Shown in pieces: positions 4,775 through 64,000 of a stretch of 64,000 nucleotides of DNA (position 1 is the stretch's first letter; every line of letters starts with the position of its first letter). This DNA comes from a virus. The position numbers and the translations under genes are program-made. The stretch is from IMG/VR virus record IMGVR_UViG_3300020477_000990, positions 1 to 64,000 of that record. One strand, given 5' to 3'. The notes under the pieces are model-generated. The model had not been told where the DNA came from. It made no database searches and saw nothing but the letters and a program-made list of their open reading frames with translations.

Positions 4775-5108
4775 AAAATTAGATATGAAAGCAGTAAAGA
4801 AAGAACTGGATGAAATGTTTGATAATTATAAACCAAATCAAAAAATAAAAAAAGAACCAGAAGTTATAGATTTGGTTGAACAAGTAGCAAGGGCAAATCA
4901 AAAAGAACGTGATGCATTTACTAGAGGATTAGTTGCAAAATGGCCTTTGTTAGCAAAACAAATTATGGATAGCATACAAGTTGAAATTTTTGAAGCACGA
5001 ATTAAAGAAGAGCAAGAAACTTTAGAACGTATTTCAGAAGAAGCACGTAAAGAGGATGAACCTCTAATATTAACAAAAGAAATGGAAGTAGGTAAAAATG
5101 GAAATTAA
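4767..5108 (+). CDS. Unknown acidic/helical protein
   Basis: The 113-residue, strongly charged and predicted mostly helical protein ends in a long Glu/Lys/Arg segment (EARIKEEQETLERISEEARKE) that could be a coiled coil. ATG 4767 is taken rather than the adjacent TTG at 4764. It overlaps the aminopeptidase gene by 11 nt. No function recognised. Confidence 0.6.
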   Translation: MVKKLDMKAVKKELDEMFDNYKPNQKIKKEPEVIDLVEQVARANQKERDAFTRGLVAKWPLLAKQIMDSIQVEIFEARIKEEQETLERISEEARKEDEPLILTKEMEVGKNGN

Positions 5109-6597
5109 ATTTATCGACGATATGGCAGGTAGTGGTGAAAGCAATTGCGAAGTACACTTCTTGTATAAAATTAAAGATGATATACAACTATCACAACCAT
5201 CAGCAATATTAGATGAAGGCACAGATGGATTATTAAGTGAAACATTAAACAATAATAAATTTAAAGGAAAGTTTTTAGATAGTTTCTTTATAACATCAAA
5301 TAATTTGCCTTGCCATGATGCATTGTTTATATGTGTTGGTGATCCTAATGAATTAACAGAAAGCAAAAATGAAAAAATTGGTGGAGCAATTTATAGTAAA
5401 TTGCAAGAACGTGGCACACAAGGAAAAGTATTAATTTTTATTGATGATAAAATGAAAGGTCATCCTGCAACAAATATTGGGTTTGGTATGCAGTTAAAAG
5501 AATATAAGTTTGACAAATATTTTACTAAAAAAGATAAAGAAAAAACAGACTTTGAAGTAGTTGTTTGTCGCGACGGTGTTGCATCTACAACATTAGAAAA
5601 AGAATTTATAGATAAACAAGCAATGGCTGATAGTATTGCCTTTACTAAAGATTTAATTTCTGAACCATCAAATGTATTGTATCCTAAATCATATGCTGAT
5701 AGAGTTAACGATTTAGAAAAATTTGGAATAAAAGTTACAGTATATGGTGAAAAAGAATTAAAAAAAATAGGTGCAGATGCATTATTGGCAGTTGGACAAG
5801 GTAGTGAAAGAGAATCACAAATGGTAGTAATGGAATGGCAAGGTGGTAAAAAATCTGAAAAACCTGTAGCATTTGTTGGTAAAGGAGTTTGCTTTGATAC
5901 TGGTGGGTATTCAATTAAGCCATCTAAAGGTTTAAAAGACATGAAATATGATATGGGTGGATCAGCAGTAGTTGTTGGTACTATGATGAGTATTGCAAAA
6001 CGTAATTTACCTATTAATGCAGTTGGAGTTATTGGATTAGTTGAAAATATGGTGTCTAGTACAGCATATAAGCCAGGTGATGTTATTAATTCTATGAGTG
6101 GGCAAACAATTGAAATTGATAATACAGATGCAGAAGGTAGAGTAGTATTAGCAGATTGTTTATGGTACACACAAGATAAGTTTAAACCAAAAACAATGAT
6201 TAATTTAGCAACATTAACAGGAGCAATATCAATTGCACTTGGTGATCAACTTGCTGGTATATTTTCAAATAATGATGAATTAAGTAATCAATTAATTGAT
6301 GCTGGGCATCAAGTAGATGAAAAAGTTTGGCGTTTACCATGCGATCCAATAGGAGAAAGATATGACAAGTATGTTGATTCAACTATTGCAGATATGCATA
6401 ATGTAGGTAAAGGTGGTGAAGCAAGTTCAACAACAGCGGCACAATTTTTGCAAAGGTTTGTTAATGATACTCCATGGACACATATTGATATAGCTGGAGT
6501 TACTTGGAATGATAAAGGATCTATGACAGCATCTGGTGGTGCAACTGGTTGGGGAGTTAAGCTCTTAAACAAATGGGTAGATAACCTTGATGGTTAA
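5098..6597 (+). CDS. pepA: Leucyl aminopeptidase, M17 family
   Basis: The 499-residue protein matches the full length of cytosol aminopeptidases, which are hexameric two-metal enzymes that trim N-terminal residues; some also bind DNA. The C-terminal catalytic half is intact. It shows GKGVCFDTGG with the metal-binding Lys and Asp, KYDMGGSAVV, the signature NTDAEGRVVLAD (metal Asp/Glu and catalytic Arg), and LATLTGA. The N-terminal domain is diverged. The gene sits in a run of small genes and overlaps both neighbours. A possible role is recycling peptides from host protein breakdown by the phage's own ClpA, or N-terminal trimming after the phage deformylase; both are inference. Confidence 0.93.
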   Translation: MEIKFIDDMAGSGESNCEVHFLYKIKDDIQLSQPSAILDEGTDGLLSETLNNNKFKGKFLDSFFITSNNLPCHDALFICVGDPNELTESKNEKIGGAIYSKLQERGTQGKVLIFIDDKMKGHPATNIGFGMQLKEYKFDKYFTKKDKEKTDFEVVVCRDGVASTTLEKEFIDKQAMADSIAFTKDLISEPSNVLYPKSYADRVNDLEKFGIKVTVYGEKELKKIGADALLAVGQGSERESQMVVMEWQGGKKSEKPVAFVGKGVCFDTGGYSIKPSKGLKDMKYDMGGSAVVVGTMMSIAKRNLPINAVGVIGLVENMVSSTAYKPGDVINSMSGQTIEIDNTDAEGRVVLADCLWYTQDKFKPKTMINLATLTGAISIALGDQLAGIFSNNDELSNQLIDAGHQVDEKVWRLPCDPIGERYDKYVDSTIADMHNVGKGGEASSTTAAQFLQRFVNDTPWTHIDIAGVTWNDKGSMTASGGATGWGVKLLNKWVDNLDG

Positions 6598-7143: not shown

Positions 7144-7350
7144 ATGAACGAAAATGAAACAAATTTTATAAAAAAATTAATAGACAAAAATGCACAGGTG
7201 ACAATTTTTCTAATTAATGGTGTTAAACTAACTGGAGAAATTACCGCTGTGGATCAAAATACATTAAATTTGAAACGTGAAAAACATACTCAATTGGTAT
7301 ATAAAAACGCGATTTCAACTATAATGCCCCTAGAACCCCTAGAAATTTAA
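7144..7350 (+). CDS. hfq: Hfq-like RNA chaperone
   Basis: The 68-residue Sm-fold protein aligns end to end with the bacterial Hfq core. The Sm1 segment VTIFLINGVKLTGEI matches VSIYLVNGIKLQGQI, and the Sm2 segment QLVYKNAISTIMP matches QMVYKHAISTVVP. The proximal-face YKH signature is YKN here, and the arginine-rich rim patch of E. coli Hfq is replaced by a lysine/aspartate stretch (KKLIDKN). RNA specificity may therefore differ. Hfq normally forms hexamers that match small RNAs with mRNAs. The gene is immediately followed by a late promoter and a probable structured RNA, which suggests a linked RNA-regulatory module (inference). Confidence 0.88.
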   Translation: MNENETNFIKKLIDKNAQVTIFLINGVKLTGEITAVDQNTLNLKREKHTQLVYKNAISTIMPLEPLEI

Positions 7351-7351
7351 T

Positions 7352-7359
7352 TATAAATA
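7352..7359 (+). promoter_or_regulatory. T4-like late promoter box TATAAATA
   Basis: The exact consensus begins 2 nt after the Hfq stop codon. No protein start follows for 280 nt, so this box most likely drives the noncoding region 7370-7580. Confidence 0.65.
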
Positions 7360-7369
7360 CTATTGATAT

Positions 7370-7580
7370 AGATGAGTAAGGAAACTTATGAAGGGACTGG
7401 AAAGGTTTTCCTATTTTAGAGCCCGACTATATAAGGTGTGTCATATCTCGCCTATTGACTGAACATATGGCCGGGTGAATATACCGTTGGGTAACACCAG
7501 AGAATTATTCTAACGGAACCCTGTAGAAGAAGGATATATTTTAGGCCAAAGTATAGCTGGGCATTGCAGGGTTTAGTGAT
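7370..7580 (+). ncRNA. Candidate structured noncoding RNA downstream of hfq
   Basis: This is the longest region without a convincing gene in the window and is visibly less AT-rich than its surroundings. Helices found by eye are: GGAAA/TTTCC near 7399-7411; AGGTG/CGCCT around a 10-nt loop near 7433-7455; CCGTT (about 7486) with AACGG (about 7513), enclosing two small hairpins (GGT-AAC-ACC and AGAAT-T-ATTCT); and AACCCTG with CAGGGTT near 7517 and 7567. A perfect late promoter box lies just upstream and the next gene has its own Shine-Dalgarno at 7626. It does not match tmRNA, RNase P, 6S, SRP RNA or a group I/II intron as far as I can see. The ends are approximate. Confidence 0.6.
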
Positions 7581-7636
7581 TTTAATTGACTTTTTATGAA
7601 AAAAATATTAAAATAAAACATAATAAGGAGAAATAT

Positions 7637-7819
7637 ATGAGTACAACAAATCAACAACTTTTAACTTTATTTGATGAATACAAAGAAAACAATGATAAGT
7701 TTGCAGAAAAAGGTAATAAAGCCGCAGGTACTAGAGCTAGAAAAGCCTTATCTGAAATGACAAAGTTAGCTAAAGTGAGAAGAAAAGAAATCCAAGAAGC
7801 AAAAACTGTAACGGCATAA
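7637..7819 (+). CDS. Histone H1-like (Hc1-type) DNA-binding protein
   Basis: The 60-residue, lysine-rich helical protein contains KFAEKGNKAAGTRARKAL and then KLAKVRRKEIQE. This is the pattern of small bacterial histone H1/Hc1-like proteins, which compact DNA. AAGGAG lies 6 nt before ATG 7637; a longer upstream frame lacks such a site. It follows the putative structured RNA. It could condense phage DNA or bind RNA; the family match is by eye. Confidence 0.7.
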   Translation: MSTTNQQLLTLFDEYKENNDKFAEKGNKAAGTRARKALSEMTKLAKVRRKEIQEAKTVTA

Positions 7820-7823
7820 TTAA

Positions 7824-8366
7824 ATGGAAACTTCGAACGACAAGTACGAAATTATAAGAACGGTGTGGCGTTCTGGTCGCAAGAATGATTTTGGAGATGA
7901 ATTGGTTGTTACACAAGGTAATGTTAATTTAAAGTTAGCATATATTATGGCATGGGAAGTAAATGAAAATAGACCCGAGTGTGTTTGCTGGAATGGCACC
8001 GTAGCATACTTTCCACGTATGTTTTGGTTAGACAGCATTCCAAAAAATTTTATTAAAGTTTATAACCACTCTGAAGAGAAACATTACTTAATTGAAAAGG
8101 ATAAACATTATACTATAAATGAAGATGGCATTTATGTGAAGTATAATAAAGAAGAAGGTACAGATGTGTATCAACCACAATTTATAAATGTAACTAAAAA
8201 CCCATCAGCATTAACACAGGCAATAGAATATGTGCTTTGGTTTAATGAAAATCAACGTCAACTTGACACTTATAATAGGTTATTAAGTACGTCAAAACAA
8301 GCAAGAAAACGTAGAAGAAATAGAGCTTCTAAAACGGTTGAAAAACAGATAAATACTACATTATGA
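7824..8366 (+). CDS. Unknown protein with basic C-terminus
   Basis: The 180-residue soluble protein has a Cys/Trp-rich centre (RPECVCWNGTVAYFPRMFW) and a basic tail (KQARKRRRNRASK) that could bind nucleic acid. It starts 4 nt after the H1-like gene. Its last codons contain a late promoter box for the Fe-S carrier gene, which starts within its stop (ATGA). No family recognised. Confidence 0.65.
   Translation: METSNDKYEIIRTVWRSGRKNDFGDELVVTQGNVNLKLAYIMAWEVNENRPECVCWNGTVAYFPRMFWLDSIPKNFIKVYNHSEEKHYLIEKDKHYTINEDGIYVKYNKEEGTDVYQPQFINVTKNPSALTQAIEYVLWFNENQRQLDTYNRLLSTSKQARKRRRNRASKTVEKQINTTL
8348..8355 (+). promoter_or_regulatory. Late-promoter-like box GATAAATA inside a coding end
   Basis: The box lies within the last codons of the preceding gene and ends 7 nt before the ATG of the A-type carrier gene at 8363. 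It would give a nearly leaderless transcript. Confidence 0.45.
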
Positions 8367-8686
8367 TAACACTTACAGATTCAGCAAAACAACAGATTAT
8401 AGATTTGTGTAAGCAAAATGAAGTAGATGCAGTTAAGCTATCAGTAGAAGGTGGCGGATGTGCAGGCTTTAAGTATGACTGGGGATTTACTAGTAATGAT
8501 AAAATTGCATCAGATGATGAAGTTTTTGAATTAACAGAAGGTAAATTTGTAGTAGATGGTATGAGTGTGATGTATATTGCAGGTACAGAAATAGATTATG
8601 TACGTGAAGTATTTGGTTCACATTTTGAAATTAGAAATCCATCAGCATCATCGTCATGTGGCTGTGGTGAAAGCTTCGGAGTCTAA
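8363..8686 (+). CDS. A-type Fe-S cluster carrier (IscA/SufA/ErpA family)
   Basis: The 107-residue protein has the three conserved cluster-binding cysteines in the correct frame: Cys33 in GGGCAGF, and Cys99 and Cys101 in SSSCGCGESF. The rest follows the HesB/IscA fold (KLSVEGGGCAGFKYDW, FVVDGMSVMYIAGTEIDYV). Such proteins receive Fe-S clusters and hand them to target enzymes. Together with SufS and the CGFS glutaredoxin in this window it forms a partial Fe-S set. A client in the phage could be the radical-SAM QueE. It overlaps the upstream gene by 4 nt. Confidence 0.93.
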   Translation: MITLTDSAKQQIIDLCKQNEVDAVKLSVEGGGCAGFKYDWGFTSNDKIASDDEVFELTEGKFVVDGMSVMYIAGTEIDYVREVFGSHFEIRNPSASSSCGCGESFGV

Positions 8687-9776: not shown

Positions 9777-9785
9777 TTGGTTATA

Positions 9786-10325
9786 ATGATTGATACTGGA
9801 AGAATTACAAATATAAATGAATATGGTGAACCGGTTGTTAATTGTAATGACCTAGTTGAATTAATATATCAAGGTAAAACAATAGACAATTTAAAAGTAA
9901 ATGATAAGCGAATTGACTTATATAATACTGTAATTTCTGATTTAAATATTGATTGGCCAGAAATTAAAAAATTATCTAAGATAGATATTTCTGTAAAAGA
10001 TTATGATACTGCTCTACAATCAGATTGGTATATGCCAGATGAATATAAAAAACTTGATGTAGTATCACATATAAAATCATTAGCAAAATCAGATGAAGAG
10101 ATAAAAAGAGTTGACACAGAGCTTGAATTATATGTAAAATATGATTTGTTAAATGTATTAAGATTTTTAGTATATTTAATTAAAATAATGAGAGATAATA
10201 ATATTGTATGGGGAGTTGGAAGAGGATCATCAGTTTCATCATATGTATTATATTTGATAGGAATTCATAAAGTAAATTCTATTAAATATGGCTTAGATAT
10301 AGGTGAATTTTTAAAAGATAAATAA
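9786..10325 (+). CDS. DNA polymerase III alpha-like (family C) fragment
   Basis: The 179-residue protein ends with WGVGRGSSVSSYVLYLIGI and then KYGLDIGEFL. This matches the DnaE palm segment that reads VGPGRGSAAGSLVAYLLGI...KYGLLFERFL. The catalytic aspartates that follow this segment in DnaE (PDIDxD) are absent because the protein stops there, so it cannot polymerise alone. The phage's own polymerase is family B (33389). This stand-alone piece may modulate replication or mimic the host polymerase. ATG 9786 is used; a TTG at 9777 lies within the promoter region. Confidence 0.7.
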   Translation: MIDTGRITNINEYGEPVVNCNDLVELIYQGKTIDNLKVNDKRIDLYNTVISDLNIDWPEIKKLSKIDISVKDYDTALQSDWYMPDEYKKLDVVSHIKSLAKSDEEIKRVDTELELYVKYDLLNVLRFLVYLIKIMRDNNIVWGVGRGSSVSSYVLYLIGIHKVNSIKYGLDIGEFLKDK

Positions 10326-11184: not shown

Positions 11185-12111
11185 ATGAAAGAATTATGGG
11201 TAGAAAAGTATAGACCTAAAAAAGTAAAGGAATATGTTTTTCGCGATGAAAAACAGGAACGACAAGTTCAAAGTTGGATTGATTCAAAAGCAATACCTCA
11301 TTTAATGTTTAGTGGTGATCCTGGTACAGGTAAAACTACTTTAGCAAAATTGTTGTTGCATGAACTTGAAGTTGATAGAGGTGATATATTAGAAATAAAT
11401 GCATCTAATGAAAATAGTGTAGATGTAATGCGTGAAAAGATTACAAACTTTTCACAAACAATGCCATTTGGTGATTTTAAATATGTATTGTTAGATGAAG
11501 CAGATTATATTACACCAAACGGACAAGCAATATTGCGTGGACTTATGGAACAGTTTGCGTCAACGTGTAGATTCATATTAACTTGTAATTGGGAAAGAAG
11601 AATTATTCCAGCAATTCATTCAAGATGTCAAGGCTTTCATATAAAACAATTAGATAAAACAATGTTTTCAGTAAGAGCAGGCGAAGTTATGGCAAATGAA
11701 GGTGTTGAGTTTGATATGGATACATTAGACATATATGTTAAAGCAAATTATCCAGATTTAAGAAAATGTATTAATACTTGTCAGATGAATTCACAAACAG
11801 GTAAGTTAGAAAAACCTGAAGATGGTGATCTTACAGAAGGTAATTTAGAAATCACTTATGTAGCAATGTTTCAAAATGGTGACATTGAAAAAGCTAGAAA
11901 ATATATAGTTGAAAATGCAGATCAAAATCAGTATGATAATATATATAGAAAGATGTATGAGAACTTAGAATGGTTCGGAGATACACAAGAAAAACAAAAT
12001 AGAGCATTATTGGCAATTCGTGAAGGACTAGTAAATCACGCAGTTGTAGTAGATCCAGAGATTAATTTAGCGGCAACTATGGTCGAATTAGAAGTAATTC
12101 GAAATAAATAG
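11185..12111 (+). CDS. Clamp loader ATPase subunit (T4 gp44 / RFC-small type)
   Basis: The 308-residue AAA+ protein is close to the length of T4 gp44. It begins with the clamp-loader motif LWVEKYRPKKVKEYVF. Walker A is SGDPGTGKTTLAK, the Walker B/DEAD box is LLDEADYIT, sensor 1 is LTCNW, and the SRC motif is HSRCQGF (arginine finger). It should load the sliding clamp encoded at 37563 for the family B polymerase. The small partner (gp62 type) was not recognised. It has its own strong promoter and the start follows GGCGGG. Confidence 0.95.
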   Translation: MKELWVEKYRPKKVKEYVFRDEKQERQVQSWIDSKAIPHLMFSGDPGTGKTTLAKLLLHELEVDRGDILEINASNENSVDVMREKITNFSQTMPFGDFKYVLLDEADYITPNGQAILRGLMEQFASTCRFILTCNWERRIIPAIHSRCQGFHIKQLDKTMFSVRAGEVMANEGVEFDMDTLDIYVKANYPDLRKCINTCQMNSQTGKLEKPEDGDLTEGNLEITYVAMFQNGDIEKARKYIVENADQNQYDNIYRKMYENLEWFGDTQEKQNRALLAIREGLVNHAVVVDPEINLAATMVELEVIRNK

Positions 12112-32363: not shown

Positions 32364-33392
32364 ATGAAAAACAATGTAGCTATCATCGGTAATGGTAAAA
32401 TTGGCAGAGTCATCGCCAGTTTATTAAAATCAGAGTATTTCAATGTAACTATAGCAGATCAAGAACCACAAGGCGGAGCAGTATTGCTTGATGCCACAGA
32501 TCAAAAAGCACTTGAACATTTTATACAAGGTAAAGATGTTGTAGTATCAGCGGCACCATATTTTTTAAATAAAAAAATAGCCTTAGTTGCTTCTGAAATG
32601 GGAGTAGCATATTTTGATTTAACAGAAGATATTGATGTAACAAGTTATATTCAAAGTTTAAACACAAAAACATTCATGATGCCACAATGTGGGTTGGCGC
32701 CTGGAGCAGTTAATATTATAGGTTCTAATCTAATAAAAGAATTTGATGAAGTGCATGATGTTCAAATGAGAGTAGGAGCATTACCGCGATATCCATCAAA
32801 CGAAATGAGTTATTATTTAACTTGGTCTACAAATGGTTTAATAAATGAGTATTGTAATTTGTGTGATGCTATAGTAGATGGCCAAAAATTAGAAATTCCA
32901 CCATTAACAGGTGTAGAAAGAATTTATATTGATGGTAGAAAATACGAAGCATTTAATACTTCAGGTGGAGTAGCAACAATGTGTGAAACATTTGATGGCA
33001 AAGTACAAAATTTAAGTTATAAAACTATTAGGTATCCTGGACATAGAGACAGGATGAATTTTTTATTACAAGATTTAGGATTAAAAAGAAATAGAGATAA
33101 AATTGCAGACCTTTTTGATCAACAAGTTCCATATACAACAGAAGATGTCATCGTTATGCTAGTTAAAGTAATTGGAGTAGCTAACGGAAAACTAATCGAA
33201 CGTTCATATCAAAAAAGTATTTTTGGACAAGATGGAATGAGTGCAATTCAGAGGTCGACAGCGTCAGGAGTTTGTGCTATAGTGTTAGCTTATTGTAGAG
33301 ATGAAATAACAGGTGAAGGTTTCATTAAACAAGAAGACATTAATTGGGATACATTTATTAACAACAAATTCGGACAAGTATATAGCAAATGA
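32364..33392 (+). CDS. Saccharopine dehydrogenase-like oxidoreductase
   Basis: The 342-residue protein starts with a Rossmann motif VAIIGNGKIGRVIASLL, followed by VVVSAAPYFLNKKIA and GLAPGAVNIIGSNLI, and TWSTNGLINEYCN. This is the pattern of saccharopine reductase/lysine 6-dehydrogenase-type proteins, which handle lysine-derived amino acids with NAD(P). Substrate is unknown. It overlaps the DNA polymerase gene by 4 nt. With the degenerate dehydrogenase at 2121 it is the second amino-acid-dehydrogenase relative in the window. Confidence 0.78.
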   Translation: MKNNVAIIGNGKIGRVIASLLKSEYFNVTIADQEPQGGAVLLDATDQKALEHFIQGKDVVVSAAPYFLNKKIALVASEMGVAYFDLTEDIDVTSYIQSLNTKTFMMPQCGLAPGAVNIIGSNLIKEFDEVHDVQMRVGALPRYPSNEMSYYLTWSTNGLINEYCNLCDAIVDGQKLEIPPLTGVERIYIDGRKYEAFNTSGGVATMCETFDGKVQNLSYKTIRYPGHRDRMNFLLQDLGLKRNRDKIADLFDQQVPYTTEDVIVMLVKVIGVANGKLIERSYQKSIFGQDGMSAIQRSTASGVCAIVLAYCRDEITGEGFIKQEDINWDTFINNKFGQVYSK

Positions 33393-36109
33393 GTTATGTA
33401 GACGCTTACCTAAATAGAGACAAAGATACTATTAATATTGTTGAAAGAATAGATGGCAAAAGGGTATATAAAAGTTATCCTACTTGCTATAGATTTTATC
33501 ATGACGACAAAGATGGAACATATACATCAATATATGGTAGGTCATTAAGTAAATTTGAAACAGCAAATAGTAGAACATTTCAAAAAGAAAAGAAATTATT
33601 TGATGGGCAAAGGTTATATGAATCAGACCTAAATCCTGTGTTTAGATGTTTAGAAGAAAATTATCTTGATAAAGAAGCACCGGATCTTCATATAGCATTA
33701 TTTGATATTGAGGTTGACTTTGATAAAGATCGTGGATTTGCTAAACCAGATGATCCACATCAACGTATTACAGCAGTTACACTACATTTAAGTTGGTTAG
33801 ATAGTTTAATTACATTATGTCTTGCTCCAAAAGATATGCCTTTTGAAATGGCAGACCAAATTGCTAAAAAGTTTGAGAATACTGTATTGTGTGAAACTGA
33901 ATCACAATTACTAAACACTTTTTTACATTTAATTGAAGATGCTGATATATTGAGTGGTTGGAATAGTGAGGGTTTTGATATTCCATATCTTGTAAACAGA
34001 ACTGAAATGATATTAAGTAAAGATGATGTTAGACGTTTTAGTTTATGGGATTTGTATCCACGTGAAAGAATGTTTACAAAGTTTGGTGTAGAACAGCAAA
34101 CATATGATTTCTTTGGCAGAGTTCATTTAGATTATTTAGAATTATATAGAAAATATACATATCATGAAATGCATAGTTATAGATTAGATGCAATTGGTGA
34201 ATATGAAATTAGTGAAAAGAAAATACCATATGAAGGAACATTAGATCAGTTATATAATGAAGATTTTGAAAAGTTTATTGCATATAACAGACAAGACGTT
34301 GCACTATTGGCAAAACTTAATAAAAAATTAAAGTTCATTGACTTGTCAAATGTACTAGCACACGCAAATACTGTTTTATTGCAGACTACAATGGGTGCAG
34401 TTGCAGTTACAGAACAAGCAATTGTAAATGAAGCACATAAAAGAAATTTAATTATTCCTGATAGAAAATATCGTAAGCCACATTCAACAGATGCGGCAGT
34501 TGGTGCCTATGTAGCAAAACCTAAGAAAGGATTGCATGATTGGATAGGAGCAATTGATATTAATTCACTATATCCAAGTGTTATTAGAAGTTTAAATATG
34601 GGTCCAGAAACTATTATTGGGCAGTTACGACCAACACATACAGAAAAATACATTAATGATAAAATTTATAATGAAAAGAAATCACCAGCAGATGCTTGGG
34701 AAGGATTATTTGGTACATTAGAATATACCGCAGTTACAGAACAAGATAGAGGTACAAATATTATTGTTGATTTTGAAGATGGTACTACCGAAGAAATGAG
34801 TGGTGCTGAATTGTATGCAGTAATATTTCAACAAAATACAGATTGGTGTTTGTCAGCAAATGGTACAATTTTTAATACACAAGAAAAAGCAATTATTCCT
34901 GGATTATTAGAACATTGGTTTGCAGAAAGAAAAGTGTTACAAGGCAAAATGAAAGAAGCAATTGAAAAAGGTGATTCAGATGAAATAGCATTTTGGGATA
35001 AGCGTCAATTAGTTAAAAAGATTAATTTAAATTCATTATATGGTGCAATATTAAATCCAGGTTGTAGGTTTTTTGATCATCGTATTGGGCAATCAGTTAC
35101 ATTAACTGGTAGAACAATTACAAAACACATGGCTTCAATTACAAATGAAATTATAGCAGGTGAATATGATCATAGAGGTAAAGCAATTGTATATGGTGAT
35201 ACAGATTCAGTTTACTTTAGTGCGTACTCAATGGTTAAAGAAGATGTTAAAAGTGGTAGGTTACCATGGGATAAAGAAGCAGTAATAGAATTATATGATA
35301 ATGTAGCAAATGAAGTTAATAAATCATTTCCAGCATTTATGAAAAAAGCAACAAATGTTCCAATTAAAAATGGTGAAATAATTGTTGGTGGTAGAGAAAT
35401 GGTTGCATCAAAAGGATTGTTTATTACAAAGAAAAGATATGCAGTTCTTATATATGATTTAGAAGGACATAGACAAGATGTTGATAATCCAGGTAAACTT
35501 AAAGCAATGGGTCTTGATTTAAAAAGATCTGATACACCTGAGTTTGTACAAAACTTTTTGTCAAAAATTTTAATTGAAATTTTAACAGGCAAAGATAAAA
35601 AAGAAATATTATCCGGCATACAAGAATTTAAAAGAAAGTTTGGTGAAAGACCTGGTTGGGAAAAAGGTACACCAAAACGTGTAAACAATTTAACAAAGTA
35701 TGTTGATGAACTTGAACGTTATAGTAAGCATACAGCGAGAGTAGGATATATTAATGGCAATGGCAATGGTAAACTTAAAAAACCAGCATTACCTGGTCAT
35801 GTAAGAGCAAGTATTAATTGGAATAAAATGCGTGAAGCATATAGAGATTTGTATTCGTTGCCAATTATGGACGGACAAAAAGTTATTGTATGTAAATTAA
35901 AATCAAATCCAATGAATTATACATCAATTGCATATCCAATTGATGAATTAAATATTCCAAAATGGTTTAAAGAATTACCTTTTGATCATGAAGCAATGGA
36001 ACAAGCAATAATTGATCAAAAAGTTAGTAATTTAATGAGTGGGTTAGGATGGGATTTAGAGTCAACTAAAAAGTCAGCAGTATTTGATTCTTTATTTGAA
36101 ATGGTATAA
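33389..36109 (+). CDS. DNA polymerase, family B (T4 gp43-like)
   Basis: The 906-residue protein is about the size of T4 gp43. The 3'-5' exonuclease has IALFDIEVDFD (Exo I) and the Exo II region ILSGWNSEGFDIPYL. Polymerase motif A is IDINSLYPSVI, motif B is KKINLNSLYGA, and motif C is YGDTDSVYF. It should be the replicative polymerase working with the clamp (37563), clamp loader (11185) and Rnh (20904). It is coupled upstream to the saccharopine-dehydrogenase-like gene. Confidence 0.97.
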   Translation: MSYVDAYLNRDKDTINIVERIDGKRVYKSYPTCYRFYHDDKDGTYTSIYGRSLSKFETANSRTFQKEKKLFDGQRLYESDLNPVFRCLEENYLDKEAPDLHIALFDIEVDFDKDRGFAKPDDPHQRITAVTLHLSWLDSLITLCLAPKDMPFEMADQIAKKFENTVLCETESQLLNTFLHLIEDADILSGWNSEGFDIPYLVNRTEMILSKDDVRRFSLWDLYPRERMFTKFGVEQQTYDFFGRVHLDYLELYRKYTYHEMHSYRLDAIGEYEISEKKIPYEGTLDQLYNEDFEKFIAYNRQDVALLAKLNKKLKFIDLSNVLAHANTVLLQTTMGAVAVTEQAIVNEAHKRNLIIPDRKYRKPHSTDAAVGAYVAKPKKGLHDWIGAIDINSLYPSVIRSLNMGPETIIGQLRPTHTEKYINDKIYNEKKSPADAWEGLFGTLEYTAVTEQDRGTNIIVDFEDGTTEEMSGAELYAVIFQQNTDWCLSANGTIFNTQEKAIIPGLLEHWFAERKVLQGKMKEAIEKGDSDEIAFWDKRQLVKKINLNSLYGAILNPGCRFFDHRIGQSVTLTGRTITKHMASITNEIIAGEYDHRGKAIVYGDTDSVYFSAYSMVKEDVKSGRLPWDKEAVIELYDNVANEVNKSFPAFMKKATNVPIKNGEIIVGGREMVASKGLFITKKRYAVLIYDLEGHRQDVDNPGKLKAMGLDLKRSDTPEFVQNFLSKILIEILTGKDKKEILSGIQEFKRKFGERPGWEKGTPKRVNNLTKYVDELERYSKHTARVGYINGNGNGKLKKPALPGHVRASINWNKMREAYRDLYSLPIMDGQKVIVCKLKSNPMNYTSIAYPIDELNIPKWFKELPFDHEAMEQAIIDQKVSNLMSGLGWDLESTKKSAVFDSLFEMV

Positions 36110-61866: not shown

Positions 61867-62418
61867 ATGATAAAAACTATTTTAGCATTTCTTTATATTT
61901 CAGGCATTCTTGCCTTGGGAAGATTAATTCCACATCCACCAAACTTAACACCAATATTAGCCGCGGCTATTTTCGCTCCATACATTATTAATGATCGTTG
62001 GACAGCAATTGCAATTCCTTTAATGGCGATGTTTATTGCAGATTTAGTTATAGGGTTTCATCCATATATGTTATGGGTCTATGGTGCAATAGGTTTATCA
62101 ACTTTAATTAGTAAATGGTCAATGCAATTTAATAAAAAGTATATTCAATTAGGAGCAATGACAATAGTATCTTCTGTATTATTTTTTATAATAACAAATT
62201 TTGCAGTATGGACTATGTGGGATTACTATCCAAAAACATTAGATGGTTTAATAATGTGTTATACAATGGCAATACCATTTTTTCAAAATACATTATTAGG
62301 AACTATAATATATACAGCTCTAATGGCATCTTTAACTGTAGCATTAACTCGACCTTTTGAAAATACCTATGTACTGGTAATAAGCAAAGGAAGAGATTAT
62401 GTTAACAAACATTTTTAA
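61867..62418 (+). CDS. DUF6580-like membrane protein (putative transporter)
   Basis: The 183-residue protein has five to six hydrophobic helices. The start LGRLIPHPPNLTPILAAAIFAPYI and then FIADLVIGFHPYMLWVYG are typical of DUF6580 proteins (R-x2-PHPPNxTP, DLVxGFH), which resemble ECF-type vitamin transport components. It lies directly upstream of the TonB receptor gene and overlaps it by 20 nt, which suggests they work together in uptake. Family identification is by eye. ATTACC (61831) can pair with GGTAAT (61858), which would cover the GGGG ribosome-site region. Confidence 0.72.
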   Translation: MIKTILAFLYISGILALGRLIPHPPNLTPILAAAIFAPYIINDRWTAIAIPLMAMFIADLVIGFHPYMLWVYGAIGLSTLISKWSMQFNKKYIQLGAMTIVSSVLFFIITNFAVWTMWDYYPKTLDGLIMCYTMAIPFFQNTLLGTIIYTALMASLTVALTRPFENTYVLVISKGRDYVNKHF

Positions 62419-64000
62419 GTTAATAATAATATTTTTTATTTTTTTAGGAACAGCAAAAGCAAACGAATGCTATTGGGAAGAAATGAAAGACGAAACAATC
62501 GTTTGTGATTCGTTAGTTATTAATATACCAATATTTTTTACACAAACACCTTCACATAGAAGTAATGAAATACATAATAACGAATACATATTTCCAGACA
62601 ACGAAAGTATTCTAACAGATGCATTAAATGATGTAGCAAATTTTAATGCAGTACGTTCTGGATCAAAAGGACAACAAACATCGTTGTTTACTAGAGGAAC
62701 AAATTCAAATCATACATTAGTAACAATAAACGGATCAGCAATTACAGATCACTCAACAACTAATGGAGCAACAGATCTTAACAATGTAAATATAAATTTT
62801 GCAGATGGTATACATTTGTATACAGGTCCTATGAGTACTATATATGGACCTAATGCAATAGGTGGTGTAGTTGATATTAAAACAAGTGATGTTAAAGAAA
62901 ATGAAGTAGTAGTTACTTATGGATCTAACAATACCAAACAAACACATATTACAATTAGTGAAGGACTTACAAACTTTGGAATAAATTTTGAAGAATCAGA
63001 TGGTATATCAGTTTATCCAAAAGGTGATGAAAAAGATGGATACAACATACTTGGATTTAACTTTGGGCATTTAACAAAAATTGATAATACAGAAATTAAA
63101 ATAACAGGAATAACAAATAATACAGAATCAGATTTAGATGCCTCGGGTGCAGATGATTTAGACTATACAGCAGATACTAAATTCCATTTTGGACAAATAC
63201 AAACGTCTACAGAATTTGATGATGGAATTCTTAAATCAGTTTTAGATGCTACCTATTGGGATAGAGAATATGTAAATGGAACTGAACTTGATGAATATGA
63301 TTCTTCAGCTATACATTCAGCAACTGATTGGATAACACACACAGACAAAGTATCAACTAAAACTGGAATAGATACTGTTTGGTATAGTGCAGAATTTAAC
63401 AACAGAGGATCTTATAATTCTTCTGTAGATAAAGAAGCAAATACAACTGGAATATATCATAACTTTGATTATGTAACTGATTTAGATATAGTAGTGTCAG
63501 GTGGTTTACGTTATGATTATAATTCAATAGTAGAAGGGCAATCAACATACAGGGTTGGTACAGCATACAAAGGACTTTACTTTAGTAGGTCAACAGGGTA
63601 TAGAGCACCAACACTATATGAATTATATGGTGCAGACAATTACGGGTATAGTGGTAATGAAAATTTAAAAGCAGAAACTTCTGTAACAAATGAAGTAGGA
63701 TATAAATTTGGTAACCAAACGGTAAATGGTAATATTAGTGTTTACTCTACAAAAATAGAAGATATGATTACATACGGAAATTCTACTTATAGTAATGACA
63801 GTAATGGTACGTCAACAATGAAAGGTGGAGATATAAAACTTAACTACTACAAAGGAAATTATGGTTTTCATAATAGTATAGCATTTACGTCAGCACAAGA
63901 CTCAACTGATAATTGGTTAAAAAGAAGACCACATACGATTATCAATTCATCAGTTAGTTATTATAAAGATGATTTTTATATTTCTCCAAGTATAAATTAT
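62399..64000 (+). CDS. TonB-dependent outer-membrane receptor (BtuB-like), incomplete
   Basis: The open frame runs 534 codons to the window edge. It starts with a signal peptide (FKLIIIFFIFLGTAKA). A plug domain follows (SLFTRGTNSNHTLVTINGSAI, then YTGPMSTIYGPNAIGGVVDI), and then beta-barrel strands, including RSTGYRAPTLYELYG, a well-known block of BtuB/TonB receptors. ATG 62399 follows GGAAGAG and overlaps the DUF6580 gene. A TonB box is not clear (LVINIP). Such receptors import vitamin B12, haem or siderophores with host TonB. One in a phage genome is unexpected. Confidence 0.9.
   Translation, partial: MLTNIFKLIIIFFIFLGTAKANECYWEEMKDETIVCDSLVINIPIFFTQTPSHRSNEIHNNEYIFPDNESILTDALNDVANFNAVRSGSKGQQTSLFTRGTNSNHTLVTINGSAITDHSTTNGATDLNNVNINFADGIHLYTGPMSTIYGPNAIGGVVDIKTSDVKENEVVVTYGSNNTKQTHITISEGLTNFGINFEESDGISVYPKGDEKDGYNILGFNFGHLTKIDNTEIKITGITNNTESDLDASGADDLDYTADTKFHFGQIQTSTEFDDGILKSVLDATYWDREYVNGTELDEYDSSAIHSATDWITHTDKVSTKTGIDTVWYSAEFNNRGSYNSSVDKEANTTGIYHNFDYVTDLDIVVSGGLRYDYNSIVEGQSTYRVGTAYKGLYFSRSTGYRAPTLYELYGADNYGYSGNENLKAETSVTNEVGYKFGNQTVNGNISVYSTKIEDMITYGNSTYSNDSNGTSTMKGGDIKLNYYKGNYGFHNSIAFTSAQDSTDNWLKRRPHTIINSSVSYYKDDFYISPSINY

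Follow-up and report, generated by a model that had tools for sequence, protein, structure and literature searches.

Phage mRNA leaders that carry a structured operator are a known general kind of control element, Hfq-dependent small RNAs form a known class in bacteria, and T7 has intergenic hairpins that are processed by RNase III. The roles of phage-encoded Hfq and of phage histone-like proteins are little understood. The chlamydial small RNA IhtA is described as repressing translation of the Hc1 protein HctA, and it is trans-encoded, away from its target hctA (PMC3469542). Hc1-type proteins (PF07432), whose function is unknown, are reported from another group of jumbo phages, the ‘moraphages’, in a paper whose main text makes no mention of Hfq (PMC12619734). 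As judged from titles and the opening lines of abstracts, the papers searched give no account of a phage-encoded Hfq with a small RNA in jumbo phages, and nothing was found that links the TATAAATA late promoter with a phage noncoding RNA.

The locus described here lies in a window of 64,000 nucleotides, bases 1–64000 of a 328-kb virus record. The closest DNA polymerases among the phage records searched are those of jumbo phages, for example Sinorhizobium phage Phosso (51%) and Agrobacterium phage Atu_ph07 (46%). Its central element is a 69-nt hairpin upstream of an Hc1-like gene. Like phage operator leaders, the hairpin is positioned near a phage gene's ribosome-binding site and is kept in both sequence and shape; unlike the known examples, it has no Rfam match and is flanked by hfq on one side and an Hc1-like gene on the other. 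It shares an adjacent Hfq gene and a structured 3′ hairpin with Hfq-dependent bacterial small RNAs, but its group has no common U-tail terminator. The tie to an Hc1-type histone-like gene recalls IhtA as described, a likeness in the type of gene, and in contrast to the trans-encoded IhtA the RNA is directly upstream of the Hc1-like gene. The irregular two-stem form, size and gene-boundary location resemble those of the T7 RNase III signals, from which the hairpin differs in that each phage has a single strong copy. Judged by Rfam and literature searches, it is a new RNA family, but its kind, a leader element or small RNA of a phage, is a known one. A covarying RNA fixed between hfq and Hc1 in a group of jumbo phages offers a concrete handle on post-transcriptional control. 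The features of the region, with related loci designated L201 to L207, are:

7144–7350, + strand: phage hfq, 68 aa (Pfam PF17209, E 3.6e-19; PDB Hfq chains by phmmer, best E 2.9e-12)
7352–7359, + strand: TATAAATA, a late-promoter-like box directly behind the hfq stop codon
7365–7510, + strand: variable 5′ part of the leader, 146 nt, its start placed by reference to the box; lacks both conservation and a significant fold
7511–7579, + strand: conserved 3′ hairpin module, 69 nt, imperfect (z −3.04, covariation, model R1)
7513–7526, + strand: basal helix P1, 5′ arm (from the fold of the window hairpin)
7564–7577, + strand: basal helix P1, 3′ arm (from fold and covariation)
7586–7614, + strand: sigma-70-like TTGACT-17-TAAAAT behind the hairpin, 10/12 matches, also in L201 by eye; from a promoter scan whose sites are no commoner than in shuffles
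7637–7819, + strand: histone-H1-like (Hc1) gene, 60 aa (Pfam PF07432, E 4.1e-18)
7824–8366, + strand: 180-aa protein that stays adjacent to Hc1 across the group, by gene order in relatives
L201:2827–2895, L202:2786–2850, L203:2781–2845 (same in L204) and L205:2827–2894: hairpins of the relatives, towards the 3′ end of the leader

By these domain and chain matches the Hfq assignment of the 7144–7350 product is sound. The 180-aa protein has no match in Pfam or PHROGs. The gene-free interval between hfq and the Hc1-like gene spans 286 nt (7351–7636). The other large gaps in the mechanical ORF call contain ORFs on inspection, one of which extends past the window end, and this interval therefore remains the longest gene-free stretch of the window. 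The sequence-only reading had singled it out as such, and it had also placed a perfect TATAAATA box right after the Hfq stop codon; both observations hold, with hfq ending at 7350 and the box at 7352–7359. Within 7360–7540 there is no ORF of at least 30 aa.

The stretch as a whole is not unusually stable. The fold of 7360–7600 has z −1.18, with 21 of 200 shuffles equally stable, and that of the leader 7365–7636 has z −1.79 (7/200); neither is significant. Several helices, including a three-way junction, had been proposed for the region, but the 5′ part that would hold the junction (7365–7510) does not fold beyond chance (z −0.82, 41/200 shuffles equally stable), and the relatives' leaders hold no convincing counterpart. 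The junction is accordingly unsupported. The 5′ leader parts appear different in every lineage; that of L201 (L201:2708–2826) folds well, with z −3.93, and its hairpins do not resemble those found in the window.

The 3′ hairpin is the part of the stretch that stands out, with only 1 of 200 shuffles of 7511–7579 equally stable. At its base, two pairs lie under a G–A mismatch and an 11-pair stem lies above it; a 5/5 internal loop separates this lower part from an upper stem of 2 and then 8 pairs, which is closed by a loop of 5 nt. In P1, G7515 is mismatched with A7575 and G7516 forms a wobble pair with U7574, and this GG/UA step is present in all five distinct hairpin sequences (window, L201, L202, L203 and L205). 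Across these five, z ranges from −2.4 to −4.1 and the + strand folds better than the − strand in every case. Because the G–U wobble is invariant and the − strand fold is weaker in 5/5, an RNA of the + strand is indicated. A search of the window against Rfam 15 at gathering score returned only three tRNAs, none of them in the hfq–Hc1 interval. The permissive search of the window region gave one match (E 6, below gathering score), and the best matches of the L202, L201 and L205 leaders were likewise all below gathering scores, in agreement with the earlier statement that the region matches no common RNA family. An intrinsic terminator was considered and dropped because the arms enclose ~40 nt and no U-run after the hairpin is common to the five leaders (by eye); a terminator scan of the window leader listed none. 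A pseudoknot (AGUGG/CCACU) was noted on visual inspection of L202 and L203 but dropped, since the same inspection showed nothing equivalent in the window, L201 or L205.

Direct DNA comparison yielded no relatives. A direct search of phage records matched 83, the 40 matches listed being short, low-scoring pieces only (E 0.02–1); the L202 and L205 leaders gave no match in the same kind of search, and window DNA shared only short chance-level pieces with 48 relatives. Homologues were therefore sought through proteins and gene order, with the DNA polymerase (best 80 of 542 related stretches), the aminopeptidase encoded upstream of hfq, Hfq and the 180-aa protein. Single-protein scans of viral contigs with Hfq and the 180-aa protein gave nothing, nor did a search of genome contigs with an alignment of the 180-aa protein. 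Pfam Hfq is present in 4 of the 48 related records, and a further Hfq search supplied a fifth. Left out of the counts are L204/G049, whose hairpin is identical to that of L203/G009, and L206 and L207, which have Hfq matches in other gene contexts.

The order hfq, leader, Hc1, 180-aa protein is found in all six group records with this Hfq, the window included, and in each of them the hairpin occupies the same position ahead of Hc1. The relatives have 162–249 nt of non-coding sequence between hfq and the Hc1-like gene. The distance from the hairpin end to the Hc1 start is 57 nt in the window, 61 nt in L201, 28 nt in L202, 37 nt in L203 and 19 nt in L205, so that in the last three little sequence is left between the hairpin and the Hc1-like ribosome-binding site. 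Of 19 records searched with model R1, six give the hairpin, once each, and these are exactly the records with this Hfq; the only other matches listed for R1 have E 0.45 (G000) and E 0.75 (G016). Four records that have an Hc1-like gene without this Hfq (G013, G016, G019 and G026) have ~25–31 nt before Hc1 and no hairpin by R1, and none was found among the best 80 of at least 496 other phage Hc1 loci. A DNA pattern built on the L202/L203 hairpin matched nine stretches in viral contigs: three are the known loci, and in the other six the similarity does not extend into the hairpin. The held-out model R2 (rows L202, L203 and L205) misses the window and L201 copies, even with filters off. With R3 (four rows, no window) the window copy is the best match, at E 0.004, but the rows of R3 were aligned by means of R1, a model that itself contains the window; over the whole record R3 lists only another place, at E 0.72.

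The helix is maintained by compensatory changes, over four to five lineages only. With the arms aligned on the GG/UA step, 93.8% of 65 cells in the 13 P1 pairs are paired, and two-sided changes occur in 10 of the 13. None of 500 shuffles reaches the covariation score of this arm-joined alignment, which was made by hand and is biased towards structure, and slid versions score far lower. A plain MAFFT alignment of whole hairpins gives 97.5% pairing over eight central pairs, with two-sided changes in 5/8; again no shuffle of 500 reaches the covariation score, but 78 reach the number of pair types. RNAalifold on the plain alignment returns the full hairpin, with 19 pairs, 11 of which have two-sided changes. 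The earlier claim of a structured RNA is thus upheld by covariation for the 3′ 69 nt and is unsupported for the 5′ part, including the junction. A strict motif, defined after seeing the data as GG opposite UA with seven Watson–Crick pairs above and two below, 53–61 nt apart, is present in all five leaders and in 4, 8, 1, 0 and 1 of 20,000 shuffles of each; it occurs once more in the window, at 11718–11773 within the ORF 11185–12111. The hairpin covaries at a conserved position on the + strand, in one copy per phage.

Constraint on the hairpin exceeds that on the flanking genes in one phage pair, L202 and L203. Their hairpins are identical at 60 of 66 positions (91%), compared with 72% for hfq and 71% for Hc1, and the remaining leader reaches 58% in its 5′ part and 55% in the 3′ spacer. 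Between the window and L201 the hairpin identity is 63%, below that of hfq (71%) and Hc1 (85%). By eye, L201 bridges the two groups, having ACGGAACCC and GGGUUUAGUGA in common with the window and the loop UUGCU in common with L202 and L203.

T4-type phages use a box of the TATAAATA kind for late promoters, and late motifs are also present in cyanophages. The window has five copies of TATAAATA, all on the + strand, compared with 18 expected from shuffles over both strands, which makes the box rarer than chance. Four of the five lie between genes, and in each case the ORF called next has the same orientation; the fifth is ~36 nt before an ORF end. The copy behind hfq is a putative late promoter. 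At the same place L201 has TATAAATA, L202 and L203 have CTAAATA, and L205 has AATAAATA, which overlaps the hfq stop codon. Since TAAATA itself occurs at 11 of 73 ORF ends, the boxes of L202, L203 and L205 are weak promoter evidence. The sigma-70-like match behind the hairpin may be a second promoter of the Hc1-like gene, and from such a site an Hc1 mRNA lacking the hairpin could arise in the window and L201.

We favour, tentatively, the interpretation of 7511–7579 as a cis-acting recognition hairpin in the 5′ leader of a late Hc1-like mRNA. The shape of the hairpin is kept while its letters change, and it therefore probably serves as a functional control element within the histone-like gene's leader. 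A late transcript would start at the TATAAATA box behind hfq and run into the Hc1-like gene, with its 3′ 69 nt folding as an imperfect hairpin that closely precedes the Hc1 ribosome-binding site; both this co-transcription and the regulation are inferred. A protein would read the helix, with its fixed G–A/G–U step, and the loops in cis, and the protein-bound hairpin would control translation or stability of the mRNA for the histone-like protein. The obvious candidate partners are the neighbouring phage Hfq, whose partnership with the hairpin is possible, and the Hc1-like protein itself. The five leaders do not share a buried ribosome-binding site: the mean probability that the Shine–Dalgarno sequence is paired is 0.60, 0.34, 0.03, 0.59 and 0.16. 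A simple switch at this site therefore seems less likely than a protein that recognizes the hairpin or a nuclease that cuts it. Several observations run against the leader interpretation: the promoter-like sequence that follows the hairpin in the window and in L201, the low window/L201 hairpin identity relative to the flanking genes, and the failure of R2 on these same two copies.

The promoter-like site behind the hairpin would suit a discrete late small RNA of ~215–225 nt that ends at or just after the hairpin and pairs with host or phage mRNAs via the phage Hfq, as would the adjacent hfq gene, the box directly behind it and the restriction of the hairpin to records with this Hfq. We consider such an RNA unlikely: its 5′ part shows neither conservation nor a significant fold, and a cis-acting leader is preferred over a discrete Hfq-bound RNA because only 19–37 nt separate the hairpin from the Hc1 start in three of the five leaders (L202, L203 and L205), which leaves little space for a separate Hc1 promoter, and because no U-run terminator is common to the lineages. 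It is rather improbable that the phage Hfq and the adjacent late structured RNA together set the level of the Hc1-like protein, and perhaps of other targets, as a counterpart to the chlamydial RNA control of Hc1. Cutting of the hairpin by host RNase III, which would part the hfq-side transcript from the Hc1 mRNA, is also improbable. The shape is that of a T7-type RNase III signal (an imperfect hairpin of ~60 nt with an internal loop at a gene boundary), and its ~60–70 nt, its lower and upper stem and its position just 5′ of the ribosome-binding site would suit processing; no RNase III domain was found in the six phage records, so a host enzyme would be needed. A recurring processing signal is rejected, there being one strong copy per phage and no set, and the fixed GG/UA step and the L202/L203 loop conservation would seem to exceed the needs of a cleavage site.

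Hairpins arisen by chance in AT-rich spacers that change fast, or an inverted repeat acting as DNA, would accord with the small number of lineages (four to five), a motif defined after looking and the failure of the held-out model R2. They are nevertheless very unlikely, given the strict motif in five of five leaders against 0–8 of 20,000 shuffles each, the two-sided changes in the helix, the invariant G–U wobble and the weaker − strand fold throughout. A small protein or leader peptide is hardly credible: a 24-codon ORF with an SD-like AAGGA is present at 7388–7462, inside the variable 5′ part, but it is outside the conserved hairpin, and a similar ORF is absent by eye from the relatives' leaders.

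Several other genes of the window are of separate interest. Upstream of hfq, 5098–6597 encodes a full-length M17 leucine aminopeptidase (Pfam E 6.5e-120) with relatives on four IMG/VR contigs and no PHROGs match. A class-V aminotransferase at 125–1333 (Pfam Aminotran_5, E 1.2e-131), which by eye resembles a cysteine desulfurase, and an IscA-type Fe–S protein at 8363–8686 (Pfam Fe-S_biosyn, E 5.8e-18) possibly form a phage Fe–S assembly set. The 182-aa protein of 9777–10325 corresponds to only a short piece of a bacterial DNA polymerase III alpha domain and has relatives in 57 phage records; a separate 906-aa DNA polymerase is encoded in the genome at 33389–36109. At the far end, 62399–64000 (+ strand, continuing past the window end) matches a TonB-dependent receptor (plug, E 1.9e-15; beta-barrel, E 5.4e-21), to our knowledge an unusual kind of outer-membrane gene for a phage genome, and is directly preceded by a DUF6580 membrane protein at 61867–62418 (E 7.6e-44).
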